From positions 1 to 21,046 of the IMG/VR virus record IMGVR_UViG_3300024346_000620: a DNA stretch of 21,046 nucleotides. One strand, written 5' to 3'. The notes below the pieces were generated by a model. That model had not been told where the DNA came from and ran no database searches. It saw only the letters and a program-made list of their open reading frames with translations. Shown here one piece after another: positions 261-6,364 of the stretch. Each line of letters begins with the position of its first letter. Positions within the stretch are counted from its first letter, which is position 1. Source of the DNA: a virus. A program made the position numbers and the translations under genes.

Positions 261-289
261 TTTATAGCAGATGTATGTTATGTTGTCAA
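261..289 (-). promoter_or_regulatory. Sigma70-like early promoter for the 44-229 gene
   Basis: Minus strand: -35 TTGACA (284-289), 17-bp spacer, -10 TATAAA (261-266). The downstream sequence TATAAAGTATGTATAAGTT differs by a single base from the equivalent region of the promoter at 1951-1979, so these are copies of one promoter type. The -35 box directly follows the T-tract of the terminator at 293-316. Confidence 0.8.
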
Positions 290-292
290 GTA

Positions 293-316
293 AAAAGGGC
301 ACCGAAGTGCCCTTTT
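293..316 (-). terminator. Rho-independent terminator with UUCG loop, downstream of 346-1614
   Basis: A perfect 10-bp stem, AAAAGGGCAC pairing with GTGCCCTTTT, closes on a TTCG loop when read on the minus strand. This is the stable C(UUCG)G tetraloop. It lies about 30 nt beyond the stop codon of the 346-1614 gene. The T run is followed within a few bases by the TTGACA of the next promoter. Confidence 0.85.
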
Positions 317-345
317 ATTTTCCTCTACTAAATCTGTTTGTTGGT

Positions 346-1614
346 CTATTTTTTAACGATATCGTATGTCAGTTCTTCTATTTTCATAACACCTTTTCCG
401 TTCCAAATCTCATTCCCAAACTCAATTGCACCGACGATATCATCTTCATTGATCCAGCCTAAAGAAACCATTTGGTCCAGTAATTCTTTCACATTAAAAG
501 AGATATCAAATGCTCCAGTTTGATTGTTATAATCATCCTTACCATTTTGATTTTGGTAAGTGTCCGTAAAGTAGATCGCAGTAGAATTAAATGGAAGACA
601 GTTTGGATCTTGGTCATTCCAATTCTTTAAATCAGAACATTGCGAAACTCTATGAAACGCAAAGAGTTTCTGTCCTTCGATATTTAAATATTTTGTGCTT
701 CTACCCGGTCCTGTATAAAAACCAGTCCGTCGGCGTTCCTTTACCAAGTGGTTATCTTTAATGAGGACCATTATTTCTTTGCCCCCAACACGCAATTTCT
801 CAAACTCTGCTAAACTATATTTTTTGTCCATTAAGACAAAACGAAGATGTGTGTTGCCCTCGCCCATAAAAGTATAGTTGTATTTCACATTCATAGACAA
901 CTTTGAAAGCTCATTGATACGGAGTGGAAATTCACCAGATGTATGAAACCTATTGCCGTATTTATCAAACGCTTTAACGCCAATCAAATGATGCGGATGA
1001 AACTGCGCTCGTTTAGTCCCTTCATAGAACTTGGGTGCGATATCAAAAAACCAACCCGTTCCATCGCGTTTCATACAAGACTTAACTTCTGGAATATTAC
1101 CTTTGAATACCGTCCATCCAAAATCGGCATTGGAAGCCCAATCTGACTCAATACGTTTGCCGCCTTTTATTTCTATTTGTTCCTTATAAGGATCCCGATA
1201 ACCTGAACCTGTTTTCTTTTCCTCGATATCTTTTTGCTGATAATTATAACAGGTCCTATCGGCATTATTTACAACTGAGCCTGCCGGTGTCGTTTTTTGC
1301 ATTATGCCAGTACCTGTAGTTCTGCTTTCATTTGTATAAAATTCAAAGTCAGTATTAGTACTAAGAAAATAATTATCCATTTCTTCACGTAAATCGGTGA
1401 GTTCATTTGAATCTAAAACACCATCAAACCTGTCACCTTTATTCTTGTAAAAAGCCTCTAATGCACGGCGTGTTTTCCCACCGTAAGAACCATCGACTAC
1501 ACCTGCATTATACCCTAAATTATGAAGTAGGTTTTGAGCATCAGTTACAGGATTTGCACCTACAGTAGTAGATAGTGCAACCGTAACGGCTACGGTGGAT
1601 AGTAAATTTTTCAT
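346..1614 (-). CDS. Exported peptidoglycan-binding protein with GH12-like domain
   Basis: 422 aa. Residues 1-20 form a typical signal peptide (Lys-Asn, hydrophobic core, VGA cleavage site). Residues about 24-75 look like a PG_binding_1 domain (LGY.AGVVDG.YG..TRRAL..F). Residues about 165-420 resemble the beta-jelly-roll of glycoside hydrolase family 12: GGKEIMVLI has the form of the nucleophile strand (candidate E280), and IEFGNEIWNGKG has the form of the acid/base strand (candidate E402). What is seen: signal peptide, domain order and the two motifs. Inferred: an enzyme sent to the cell envelope that binds peptidoglycan and may cut a glycan. It could act in lysis or surface modification, or be an acquired host gene. 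Cysteines at about 122, 180, 326 and 339 would suit disulfides in an exported protein. The start at 1614 has AAGGAA upstream. Promoter at 1643-1669, terminator at 293-316. The GH12 call is from motif recall only; the first two features are surer. Confidence 0.75.
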   Translation of the reverse strand: MKNLLSTVAVTVALSTTVGANPVTDAQNLLHNLGYNAGVVDGSYGGKTRRALEAFYKNKGDRFDGVLDSNELTDLREEMDNYFLSTNTDFEFYTNESRTTGTGIMQKTTPAGSVVNNADRTCYNYQQKDIEEKKTGSGYRDPYKEQIEIKGGKRIESDWASNADFGWTVFKGNIPEVKSCMKRDGTGWFFDIAPKFYEGTKRAQFHPHHLIGVKAFDKYGNRFHTSGEFPLRINELSKLSMNVKYNYTFMGEGNTHLRFVLMDKKYSLAEFEKLRVGGKEIMVLIKDNHLVKERRRTGFYTGPGRSTKYLNIEGQKLFAFHRVSQCSDLKNWNDQDPNCLPFNSTAIYFTDTYQNQNGKDDYNNQTGAFDISFNVKELLDQMVSLGWINEDDIVGAIEFGNEIWNGKGVMKIEELTYDIVKK

Positions 1615-1642
1615 TGTATTTCCTTCATGTGTTTACACTTGA

Positions 1643-1669
1643 TTTATACTAATTCTTTTAGAATATCAA
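1643..1669 (-). promoter_or_regulatory. Degenerate early promoter for the 346-1614 gene
   Basis: Minus strand: TTGATA (1664-1669) and TATAAA (1643-1648) with only 15 bp between them. The spacer (TTCTAAAAGAATTAG) matches that of the promoter at 1951-1979 (TTCTAAACGAATCACTT) except for substitutions and a 2-bp deletion. The short spacer predicts weak activity or a need for an activator. Confidence 0.5.
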
Positions 1670-1917
1670 GCAAAAAGTGGTTGCATTGTTTCGAAAACTT
1701 TGTTGTAAGCATTTACTTCTGCTTCATAGTATTCATAAAAATCTGAGTCGTCAGTAAAATGAGCATGGTCACAATTATAACTGGCACAATGTTCATCCCA
1801 TACACGATTCATTGCTTCCATGCCTTCAAGCAAATCACCACGACCATAAGAAGTCATTACTGTTTTAGCATCTTCAAAGGTAGTAGCAAACTTATAAAAA
1901 CTAGGGATTCTAAACAT
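1666..1917 (-). CDS. Small hypothetical protein (83 aa), early-type gene
   Basis: No family recognised. The protein is rich in aromatic and acidic residues (DDSDFYEYYEAEVNAYNKVF near the C-terminus) and contains two cysteines and three histidines in the middle (EHCASYNCDHAHF). That cluster could bind a metal, which is inference only. Start ATG at 1917 with a strong GGAGAA Shine-Dalgarno, behind a clear sigma70-like promoter. No hairpin separates its end from the promoter of the 346-1614 gene, so it may read through. Confidence 0.6.
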   Translation of the reverse strand: MFRIPSFYKFATTFEDAKTVMTSYGRGDLLEGMEAMNRVWDEHCASYNCDHAHFTDDSDFYEYYEAEVNAYNKVFETMQPLFA

Positions 1918-1950
1918 ATTACATTCTCCGTTTTCTCAACTTATACATTC

Positions 1951-1979
1951 TTTATAAAGTGATTCGTTTAGAATGTCAA
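1951..1979 (-). promoter_or_regulatory. Sigma70-like early promoter for the 1666-1917 gene
   Basis: Minus strand: TTGACA (1974-1979), 17-bp spacer holding CGAATCAC, TATAAA (1951-1956). The following bases TATAAAGAATGTATAAGTT match the promoter at 261-289 at all but one position. The T-tract of the terminator at 1984-2010 runs directly into the -35 box. Confidence 0.85.
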
Positions 1980-1983
1980 GTAA

Positions 1984-2010
1984 AAAACGCAAGAAAGAAT
2001 CCTGCGTTTT
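1984..2010 (-). terminator. Rho-independent terminator downstream of 2025-2309
   Basis: Stem AAAACGCA (minus strand) pairs with TGCGTTTT around an 11-nt loop and is followed by further T residues. It lies 14 nt beyond the stop codon at 2025 and abuts the next promoter. Confidence 0.75.
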
Positions 2011-3228: not shown

Positions 3229-3257
3229 ATTTTACACGATTCTAAAGTATTTGTCAA
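3229..3257 (-). promoter_or_regulatory. Sigma70-like promoter for the glycosyltransferase
   Basis: Minus strand: TTGACA (3252-3257), 17-bp spacer, TAAAAT (3229-3234). The -35 box overlaps the TGA stop codon of the upstream kinase gene (3254-3256). Confidence 0.7.
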
Positions 3258-3931
3258 CTTCTTTGATCTTTGATCCAGTTCTTGGCCTGTGGCATAGATG
3301 GAGACTTATTTAAAAATTTATCAATTTCTCTATCAACTTCTAAGAAATTTGATTTACGTTCTGGATCTTCTAGTCCACCAGAGTTATCAACAATATGAAA
3401 TTTTCCTGCACCGAATAACTGTTGGAACTTCATAAGATTCTGCTGTACTGCTTGCCACATCTTAGTTACTTGGTCTCTTGGTAAACTTCTAGGACGATTT
3501 TCATTACGCTCTTGTGCAACATCTTCACTCGTATTAACAAACAACATCATTGTTTCATAGCCAAGTTCTTTTAATTGTTCACTTGCTTTTTGAACTTTTG
3601 CTACATCTTTACCGGTACCATCAATAATAAGACCCAAACGTCCGTCAATATGCAATTGTTGTTTATTCTTTGTAATCTGTTTTGCACGATTACGAATTTC
3701 TTGTCCTTCATCAGAATAGATATCATCTGGAGTCAATTCTTTTCCTGCTTTATCCATCATATATTCATAAATGTCATCTGAATTTACTGTTCTGAGACCA
3801 GTTCCTTTGAGCATCTTATTAGCAACAAAACTTTTGCCACTACCTGGACCGCCTGCAAGGAATACTGCTTTGAAAATATGAGGGTCATTAACACCTTCAT
3901 CCACTTGTTTAATAACTTCATTAACACGCAT
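3254..3931 (-). CDS. P-loop kinase (zeta-toxin/polynucleotide-kinase-like)
   Basis: 225 aa. Walker A is GGPGSGKS (residues 27-34) after a hydrophobic strand. SDD (51-53) sits where substrate-binding acids occur in zeta-like and polynucleotide kinases. LIIDGTGKD (101-109) is the second conserved strand, and ERNENRPRSLP (141-151) looks like an arginine-rich lid. The fold would phosphorylate a small molecule, nucleotide or nucleic-acid end; the substrate cannot be read from sequence. Start ATG at 3931 has CGGAG upstream, and a late promoter (3963-3970) lies 32 bp away. It is the last gene before the early-type block. Late expression and its presence in a phage argue for nucleic-acid-end or nucleotide chemistry more than for a toxin of a toxin-antitoxin pair; no antitoxin-like gene is adjacent. 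Confidence 0.75.
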   Translation of the reverse strand: MRVNEVIKQVDEGVNDPHIFKAVFLAGGPGSGKSFVANKMLKGTGLRTVNSDDIYEYMMDKAGKELTPDDIYSDEGQEIRNRAKQITKNKQQLHIDGRLGLIIDGTGKDVAKVQKASEQLKELGYETMMLFVNTSEDVAQERNENRPRSLPRDQVTKMWQAVQQNLMKFQQLFGAGKFHIVDNSGGLEDPERKSNFLEVDREIDKFLNKSPSMPQAKNWIKDQRS

Positions 3932-3970: not shown

Positions 3971-6062
3971 TAGGACCCAAGACTGTCTGAGATTTTATTG
4001 ATTCCCATGATGTGATACTATTTGCTATTTTAGGAGAAACATTATTAATAATTCTAGTATGACGTGGTTGTATGCTATTAGTAAATAACACACGCTTTTC
4101 TTCTTCTTTTACTGCATTATAATCAGCACCAGGCGATTCGTATGCAAGTTCCTTTCTTACACTATACAAATTACGCAATGTCTTCTTATATCCAGAAAGT
4201 TCTTCAATTATTATCATTGCTTGTTTTTTTTGTCCAGTTTTGAAGATAACAGAATTAGATTCAGTATATTGTCTAATATCACTTATTGCATTTCGAATTA
4301 ACGTTTGTTGTGTTGTTACGCTTTTTCCTATAGTTGGGCGCCACAGTGATTTAAATGATTGAGAAAGAACTGACATTAATGGTAACTTATTTCCTTTGTT
4401 GTCAGTAGTTGTGTGATTCCCCGCAGTGTCTATAATAGATGCATCAGATGCTGCAGATGAAATTTGTGGATTTGATATATCGCCCCTTAGGTCCGGTGCA
4501 GTAAAATTAGGCTGGCCGCCACCTTGTGAAATGCCGACCACATCTTTGATACTAGGTGGCGAATCCAAATCAGGAATAGGCAATTGAGATGTTTCTCCTC
4601 TAGACACAGATGAAATATTAGATGATGTTGCTGATGTTGAATTACTACCAGTTACTGGTTTTCTAACGATACGTTCTGATCCATCAGATGATGTTATAGT
4701 TTCAAATTCTGAACTTAAACCATTATTGCCAGTATATAAATCAAATAAGTATGCGTCTATTGGTTGATAGATACTTGCTGCCAAACTGAATGGTGATTGA
4801 GGAACTCCTGGTAGTGAAGATGCATTATCTATTGCACTACCAAGGATTGAATCAACATCACCTGCAAACGCACGAGGATCTACAGAAGTAGGGATATTAA
4901 ATCCAGCATTACCTGTTGGTAACGGAGCATTTAATAATCCAGCAGCATTTTTTAATGCAGGTGATCCTGTATTCATTAATACTGCTAATTTACATGGATC
5001 CAACATAGCACCTGCCATTGTCATTGCTGCTAGTTTGTCTGCTATCTGAGATGCCATATTTGCAATGTTTGCTATTTCTCCAAATATTTGGTTTGCCACA
5101 CTTGATACAGCATTCATCGCACTTGCTGCCATGTTCCCTAAATCACCTAGCATACCTTTAATGTTTGGTAATAACCCCATCACAGAATCCAATGCTCCAT
5201 TAACTACGCTAGATATATTGCTTATTAATGAATTAATATTATCAGATATTGGGCCAACTAATCCTGAAATTATATTTGAAATATCGCCCGAGATTCCATT
5301 AAAGAAATCCATAACACCAGTTTGATTGAGTATATTTAAGAGTGACGATTTTGCACTATCCAATAGTCCAAACGCACTATCAAAACTACCTGACATTACA
5401 CCCATTAATTCGTTGAATAGGCTACAACTATTATCCTGTTCTCCAAAAGATTTATTAAGGCTTGATAAGGTGTCAGCATCTTGCAATGTCTGTGGCAAGT
5501 CTTGGATCTGTTGTCCTGTATGTAAATTTAAATTATTAAACATACCAATTGCAGCAGTTCCTAAGGTCGCACCAAGTAATATTTTATCAAAATCTAATCC
5601 AGTTTCAGTCAATACTCCTGCAATAATTGTACTTTTAAGAAGAACGCTACCACCATTGCTAGTATCAGCCAACAAATTAAAAGAATTATCTGCGCCACTT
5701 AGTGATGAAACCCCTGGACTTGAATTGTATTCTGTATAGTTTGAAATACCATCGTTGGAAACCGAGGTATATGGATTTGTAAAATTATTATCTGCTAGTT
5801 CACTTGATATAATAGATAATGCTTCTTTTCTATTATATTGTTCTTCCGCAGCATTTAACTCTGCTAACCGAGAGGGTGATAATTCAATTTTACTTGTTTC
5901 GTCATAGTATTCTACAGGTGTATTGACAGTTTCGCCCAAAGACGCAAATATAATATTGTCTGCAGTAGGAGTATTTGATCCTGTTAGACTACCGCCACCT
6001 TTTCTTATAAATTCTTGATATAGTCTTTCAAATTCTGCTTCGCTCATTGACATCTTATTCAC
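3966..6062 (-). CDS. Large putative virion/tail protein (698 aa), unidentified
   Basis: I cannot assign a family. The centre (residues about 150-370) is a long run of Ala/Gly/Ser/Ile-rich amphipathic segments (MDFFNGISGDISNIISG, AASAMNAVSSVANQIFGEIA), as in tape-measure-like or membrane-interacting tail proteins. Before and after it the protein is Ser/Asn/Thr-rich. The C-terminal about 120 residues are charged and probably helical. It starts with GTG at 6062, overlapping the stop of the PAAR gene by 4 bases (GTGA), which suggests translational coupling; an ATG at 6053 (MSMSEAE) is an alternative start. Position directly after the PAAR spike-tip gene and an LSm-like gene argues for a baseplate or tail-tube role. 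Confidence is high that it is a real gene and moderate that it is structural. Confidence 0.7.
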   Translation of the reverse strand: MNKMSMSEAEFERLYQEFIRKGGGSLTGSNTPTADNIIFASLGETVNTPVEYYDETSKIELSPSRLAELNAAEEQYNRKEALSIISSELADNNFTNPYTSVSNDGISNYTEYNSSPGVSSLSGADNSFNLLADTSNGGSVLLKSTIIAGVLTETGLDFDKILLGATLGTAAIGMFNNLNLHTGQQIQDLPQTLQDADTLSSLNKSFGEQDNSCSLFNELMGVMSGSFDSAFGLLDSAKSSLLNILNQTGVMDFFNGISGDISNIISGLVGPISDNINSLISNISSVVNGALDSVMGLLPNIKGMLGDLGNMAASAMNAVSSVANQIFGEIANIANMASQIADKLAAMTMAGAMLDPCKLAVLMNTGSPALKNAAGLLNAPLPTGNAGFNIPTSVDPRAFAGDVDSILGSAIDNASSLPGVPQSPFSLAASIYQPIDAYLFDLYTGNNGLSSEFETITSSDGSERIVRKPVTGSNSTSATSSNISSVSRGETSQLPIPDLDSPPSIKDVVGISQGGGQPNFTAPDLRGDISNPQISSAASDASIIDTAGNHTTTDNKGNKLPLMSVLSQSFKSLWRPTIGKSVTTQQTLIRNAISDIRQYTESNSVIFKTGQKKQAMIIIEELSGYKKTLRNLYSVRKELAYESPGADYNAVKEEEKRVLFTNSIQPRHTRIINNVSPKIANSITSWESIKSQTVLGPR

Positions 6063-6364
6063 CCATTAATATATGTTTTGGCTGCACCAGATGCTACTTT
6101 AATTCCACATGAATGTGAATCATTAACTCTACCAAGTGGCCTACCGTTGACATAAACGTTAGGAGAACCTTGCACTAATGGAGTTACATGTGGAACACAA
6201 GACGGTGGTGATCCCATGGGTATATCGTGAGGAAAAGTTTTATCCCCTAGCCTATATGCAAGTTTACCTTCAATAATAACATTCTCACTGCCCATACCAC
6301 ACTTCCCAGGAGCACAAGGCGCATGGGGCGTTAACATATCTGTTGTTCTGGCAGCCTGTGGCAT
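6059..6364 (-). CDS. 5.4: PAAR-domain spike-tip protein (T4 gp5.4-like)
   Basis: 101 aa, close to the 97 aa of T4 gp5.4. It has the PAAR layout: an N-terminal Pro-Ala-Ala-Arg-like start (MPQAARTTDM), Gly/Pro-rich turns, VNGRPLGRVNDSHSCG near residues 72-87, and candidate zinc ligands among H14, H46, H59, H84 and C86. Known role of the family: it caps and sharpens the trimeric beta-helix spike at the baseplate centre for piercing the outer membrane. The ATG at 6364 overlaps the stop of the preceding gene by one base (TAATG), and it is coupled to the next gene by GTGA. The spike protein itself (gp5) is not in this window. Confidence 0.9.
   Translation of the reverse strand: MPQAARTTDMLTPHAPCAPGKCGMGSENVIIEGKLAYRLGDKTFPHDIPMGSPPSCVPHVTPLVQGSPNVYVNGRPLGRVNDSHSCGIKVASGAAKTYING

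Follow-up and report, generated by a model that had tools for sequence, protein, structure and literature searches.

The window analysed here, the whole 21,046-bp IMG/VR virus fragment IMGVR_UViG_3300024346_000620, carries its larger genes on the minus strand. Besides a PAAR protein and further genes of phage type, it encodes a DnaB-like helicase that is 53% identical to the helicase of Pseudomonas phage PA5oct; related sister contigs reach up to 155 kb. Judged by these genes and by the sister contigs, the window comes from a large tailed phage. At 3254-3931 a Zeta-toxin/AAA-kinase-like protein is encoded (PF06414, E=1.7e-14) that shares 52% identity with one from Methylophilales phage Melnitz. 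In one sister (L245:11308-13150), two proteins recognised by inspection only are encoded in succession: the first resembles an NAD-dependent epimerase and the second a cation-efflux membrane protein. The open reading frame followed up in this study encodes a protein of 422 aa, and its position is as given in a preliminary description of this DNA (Table 1).

Table 1. Features of the 422-aa protein gene and its surroundings (window coordinates)
Feature	Position	Strand	Basis
ORF, 422 aa, PG-binding + GH12-like protein (export predicted)	346..1614	-	ORF call and profile matches
Putative Sec signal peptide, residues 1-20, cleavage between VGA and NP	1555..1614	-	hydropathy and inspection
PG_binding_1 domain, residues 21-70	1405..1554	-	Pfam PF01471, E=7.9e-9
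GH12-like domain, about residues 122-418	361..1251	-	HMM, hhalign, homologue alignment, Foldseek
E280, GH12 nucleophile column (KEIMVLI)	775..777	-	alignment
E402, GH12 acid/base column (FGNEIWNG)	409..411	-	alignment
Promoter-like element of the 422-aa gene, TTGATA-N15-TATAA	1644..1669	-	sequence match
Terminator-like hairpin immediately past the stop codon; symmetrical, with its T-run on the minus strand	293..316	-	sequence
Promoter-like element (TTGACA-N17-TATAA) of the small gene that follows, directly after the terminator	262..289	-	sequence
Segment absent from sister phages	298..1657	-	sister flanks (window 1658-1986 and 1-297) abut

The N-terminus of the protein (MKNLLSTVAVTVALSTTVGA, followed by NP) has a lysine-bearing n-region, a hydrophobic core with a 12-residue hydropathy mean of up to 2.05 and, by inspection, a V-x-A cleavage motif. 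This agrees with the signal peptide proposed in the preliminary description, which we treat as putative, and suggests that the protein would be exported by Sec. The PG_binding_1 domain, named there as well, scores 36 bits against a curated cut-off of 23, and PHROG endolysin families match only this PG-binding stretch, within residues 10-85. A Pfam search identified no further family in the rest of the protein, and no recognised murein-cleaving catalytic domain was found in it; its catalytic part is the GH12-like one.

The preliminary description had also proposed a GH12-like domain, and HMM searches with the Pfam models PF01471 and PF01670. While PF01471 matches, PF01670 gave no match to the protein at E<=10, and a single-sequence phmmer search of the PDB returned a weak but colinear GH12 match (1oa4, E=0.22). 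To collect relatives, a DNA pattern encoding [FY]GxEIWxGxG was scanned across a collection of genomes; GH12 proteins were among the matches listed, most of which were chance, and several of these proteins exceed the PF01670 cut-off (L041, E=5e-17). Additional GH12s were gathered by family search. With an HMM of 28 GH12 sequences the 422-aa protein scored 43.1 bits (E=1.8e-15 for one sequence), whereas the highest score among 5000 shuffles was 10.5 bits. The first relatives had been picked through the very motif they share, and the test was therefore redone with eight GH12s not reached via the E402 motif, giving 32.8 bits versus 11.0 for shuffles. Comparison with GH12 by hhalign yielded a probability of 95.2% (E=2.5e-8) over 180 columns covering residues 179-417, and the alignment with a 321-aa phage homologue described below starts at about residue 118. 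What we rate as the cleanest homology test is a profile of the two phage proteins only, which contains no cellular GH12: its seven best PDB matches are all GH12, with a best E of 1.1e-6.

A single-sequence AlphaFold model of the protein was discarded (pLDDT 31). Full-length alignment A3 places the N-termini of other GH12s on the PG-binding region, and folding was instead based on the domain-only alignment A4. The alignment-guided model (11 rows) has a pTM of 0.73 and a mean pLDDT of 65, with core blocks above 80 and about half of the model below 70. In the structural comparison, which the preliminary description had also suggested, the best Foldseek matches of this model are GH12 structures (2jem, E=5.8e-13, probability 1.00, TMt 0.68), and GH11, a clan relative of GH12 (PF01670 belongs to clan GH-C), appears lower in the list. 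Since the AlphaFold alignment included GH12 relatives, we count the match to the beta-jelly-roll GH12 fold as supporting evidence only. The protein has profile homology, a best fold match and both Glu columns in common with GH12 endoglucanases/xyloglucanases such as 2jem, 1oa4 and 1h0b. It differs from such enzymes in lying below Pfam detection, in its identity of about 12-18% in the best bacterial fold alignments, in large insertions and in the residues beside the nucleophile. GH12 matches were thus obtained by profile as well as by structure, and on these comparisons the C-terminal domain is a very divergent homologue of GH12.

Both residues singled out in the preliminary description fall on the catalytic columns of the GH12 alignment. 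The nucleophile column (EIM), occupied by E280, is Glu in 33 of 41 GH12 rows, and the acid/base column (GxEIW), occupied by E402, is Glu in all 40 rows having a letter. Three positions beside the nucleophile have been replaced. Arg258, four columns past a conserved Asn, stands at the Asp/Glu position of the YDIW-type motif, where 35 of 41 rows have an acidic residue (22 Asp, 13 Glu); Val260, two columns further on, stands where every one of the 41 rows has an aromatic (29 Trp, 12 Phe); and Leu284 takes the place of the Trp of EIMIW, again kept in 41 of 41. The YDIW-type Asp/Glu and the EIMIW Trp are usual in GH12 and not strictly defining. With these GH12-kept positions replaced, the protein may or may not cut beta-glucans, and the loss of the Asp/Glu and aromatics suggests that its substrate is probably something other than plain cellulose. 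The catalytic chemistry may persist with a changed sugar-stacking surface, or activity may be lost.

The gene has its own promoter-like and terminator-like elements. The window contains four matches to TTGA[CT]A-N15-18-TATAA, every one of them minus-strand and located between 262 and 2361, compared with 0.28 expected from shuffles. A general sigma70 scan of the cassette region gave no excess, indicating that the promoter signal resides in this shared, stricter element. The element of the 422-aa gene itself, with its 15-nt spacer, is weaker than those of its neighbours. The early-type promoter control put forward in the preliminary description is consistent, at the level of sequence, with the position of the gene among sigma70-type promoter cassettes. 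In sisters without the segment, whose neighbouring protein is 97-98% identical, the sequence diverges at the CTTGA of the promoter. One sister without the gene (L250:9140-9200) retains the terminator and a stretch like the 3' untranslated end of the window gene, which could be a deletion scar. The cassette gene is present in one assembly only, and a contig 99.9% identical to the window (L161) ends at window position 2795, short of the cassette. We considered a chimeric contig and think it unlikely: both cassette flanks run on at 95-98% identity to the sisters, and the breaks fall at promoter elements.

Shuffling of promoter early stem-loop (PeSL) cassettes is described for T4-type phages (Arbiol 2010 and Comeau 2014, as cited in PMC4503421). 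As in such PeSL/moron cassettes, small genes in the window are separated by a terminator hairpin with an early-type promoter immediately behind it, and genes are present or absent between near-identical sisters. In contrast to the T4-type cassettes, the promoter and terminator sequences belong to this phage group itself and the cargo is a GH12-like protein predicted to be exported. Judged by this layout, the 422-aa gene is a moron/PeSL-type cassette, present or absent at one site, with its own promoter and terminator as read from sequence. We hold the GH12 descent and the cassette nature, taken jointly, to be highly probable.

When complete sister records were searched with a profile, a homologue was detected at a different genomic place in two sister phages, and a contig scan raised the carriers of this 321-aa protein to four related contigs. 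It has a signal-like N-terminus but no PG-binding domain and is 31% identical to the 422-aa protein. Both Glu are retained (LEIMLKI; FQTEVSYGKG), and the Asp/Glu and the W of EIMIW are likewise missing. In a 146-kb sister its gene (L316:4001-4966) has nrdB, identified by inspection, on one side and small genes on the other. A terminator-like hairpin and TTGACA-N17-TATAA, the same kind of element as in the window cassette, precede it. The copies have a dN/dS of about 0.15-0.3, from few changes, and the homologue appears to be under constraint. That it lacks the PG-binding domain indicates that tethering is not essential to the family. No fusion to PG_binding_1 was seen among the cellular GH12 ORFs compared, a limited sample. 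The tree groups the two phage proteins in a clade with support of 100/99, carried by a long stem, and with so long a branch its placement is unsure. By these comparisons they represent a phage clade of GH12-derived proteins, predicted to be exported, with two architectures at two genomic sites.

Searches further afield identified few candidates. Peptide patterns of the 422-aa protein alone detected no close relatives in viral or genome contigs, and none of the 13 matches from a motif scan of viral contigs was related. Neither tblastn of 50,697 annotated phage records nor PHROGs yielded a GH12-like protein, and a library of viral structure predictions contained no fold match to GH12 at E<0.001. 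Literature on GH12 and phage, judged largely from titles and abstracts, included no paper evidently about a phage GH12. A recent host origin was considered and, on a weak argument, set aside: 369 and 385 genomes sampled from two bacterial classes contained distant GH12s and no close cellular homologue. One genome in the collection, a Granulosicoccaceae MAG (G003), has nine GH12 matches (L140, L143, L146, L148, L150, L151, L153, L155 among the loci) in what looks like an expansion.

A second GH12 was found in an 87.6-kb IMG/VR contig (IMGVR_UViG_3300044996_000496; L311:4911-5726), encoding a canonical family member with a lipobox (Pfam E=2e-14). A tail-lysozyme-like ORF (5751-6212) comes right after its gene, and an RNA ligase, a sigma factor and GroES are encoded nearby. 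Like the 422-aa protein, it combines a GH12 domain with an export signal in a viral contig; unlike it, it has canonical active-site motifs and a lipobox and no PG-binding domain. The tree does not group it with the window clade and gives it no firm placement.

An ordinary endolysin is encoded by sister phages (L307:1495-2328). This 278-aa protein consists of a GH19 domain and a C-terminal PG_binding_1 domain, a module it has in common with the 422-aa protein; it has no obvious signal sequence, whereas in the 422-aa protein the N-terminus is signal-like and the second domain is GH12-like. The presence of this separate GH19+PG-binding endolysin indicates that the 422-aa protein is not a routine lysin, in agreement with the preliminary description. 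A 155-kb sister also encodes a PG_binding_1 protein of 354 aa (L305:1084-2145) that has Pro/Thr-rich repeats and whose N-terminus, on inspection, resembles a lysozyme.

Our functional reading, to which we give an even chance, is that of an early, peptidoglycan-tethered, exported GH12-derived protein acting on host envelope glycan; its export, timing, catalysis, substrate and benefit are what we infer from sequence. The host polymerase would transcribe the cassette early from its own host-type promoter, and the protein would be exported by Sec and its signal peptide cleaved. The PG_binding_1 domain could then keep the mature protein on periplasmic peptidoglycan, where the GH12-derived domain may act upon a beta-linked polysaccharide belonging to the infected cell's envelope or matrix. 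Such action would take place during infection rather than at the final lysis step, and envelope remodelling or weakening, or altered access for other phages (exclusion), is the role that we would propose.

The replaced residues beside the nucleophile bear on whether the domain is still an enzyme. Both phage forms have lost the Asp/Glu and Trp at this site and their clade sits on a very long branch; together with the early-type cassette position, this would suit a pseudoenzyme on a GH12 scaffold in which hydrolysis has been lost and the exported protein binds a glycan or receptor, for example in superinfection exclusion. We consider this possible but rather doubtful. Both catalytic Glu are kept in phage proteins that are only 31% identical, which drift would not favour and which argues for catalysis.

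If the domain is active, its target could lie elsewhere than in our functional reading. GH12s act on beta-glucans, and together with the putative export signal this would fit an auxiliary metabolic gene, a cell-held endo-beta-glucanase helping the infected host to use external beta-glucan. However, a PG-binding tether points to the periplasm or wall and not the medium, the active-site changes poorly fit a plain glucanase and the gene had no visible neighbour for sugar transport or catabolism, so that this seems quite improbable even given the precedent of virus-encoded polysaccharide hydrolases, including an active GH5 endomannanase (PMC6786970). Quite improbable, too, is an accessory peptidoglycan hydrolase for lysis or DNA entry, as might be read from the PG_binding_1 domain, whose PHROG matches are endolysins, and from the tail-lysozyme-like gene that adjoins the other viral GH12 (L311). 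The sisters already have a GH19+PG-binding endolysin, the 422-aa gene sits in a promoter cassette and not in a structural-gene neighbourhood, and peptidoglycan is not a known substrate of GH12s. Speculative and unlikely, in our view, is a broader possibility in which the two phage proteins belong to a phage-specific family of GH12-fold glycosidases that has shifted to a polymer of the envelope, for instance the glycan strand of peptidoglycan with its amino sugars, and that passes between phages in an early cassette for an exported protein, tethered to peptidoglycan or not. Returning to the reading of an early protein acting on envelope glycan, the protein, if active, would imply that a cellulase-fold enzyme serves phages in modifying the envelope glycans of their hosts early in infection.
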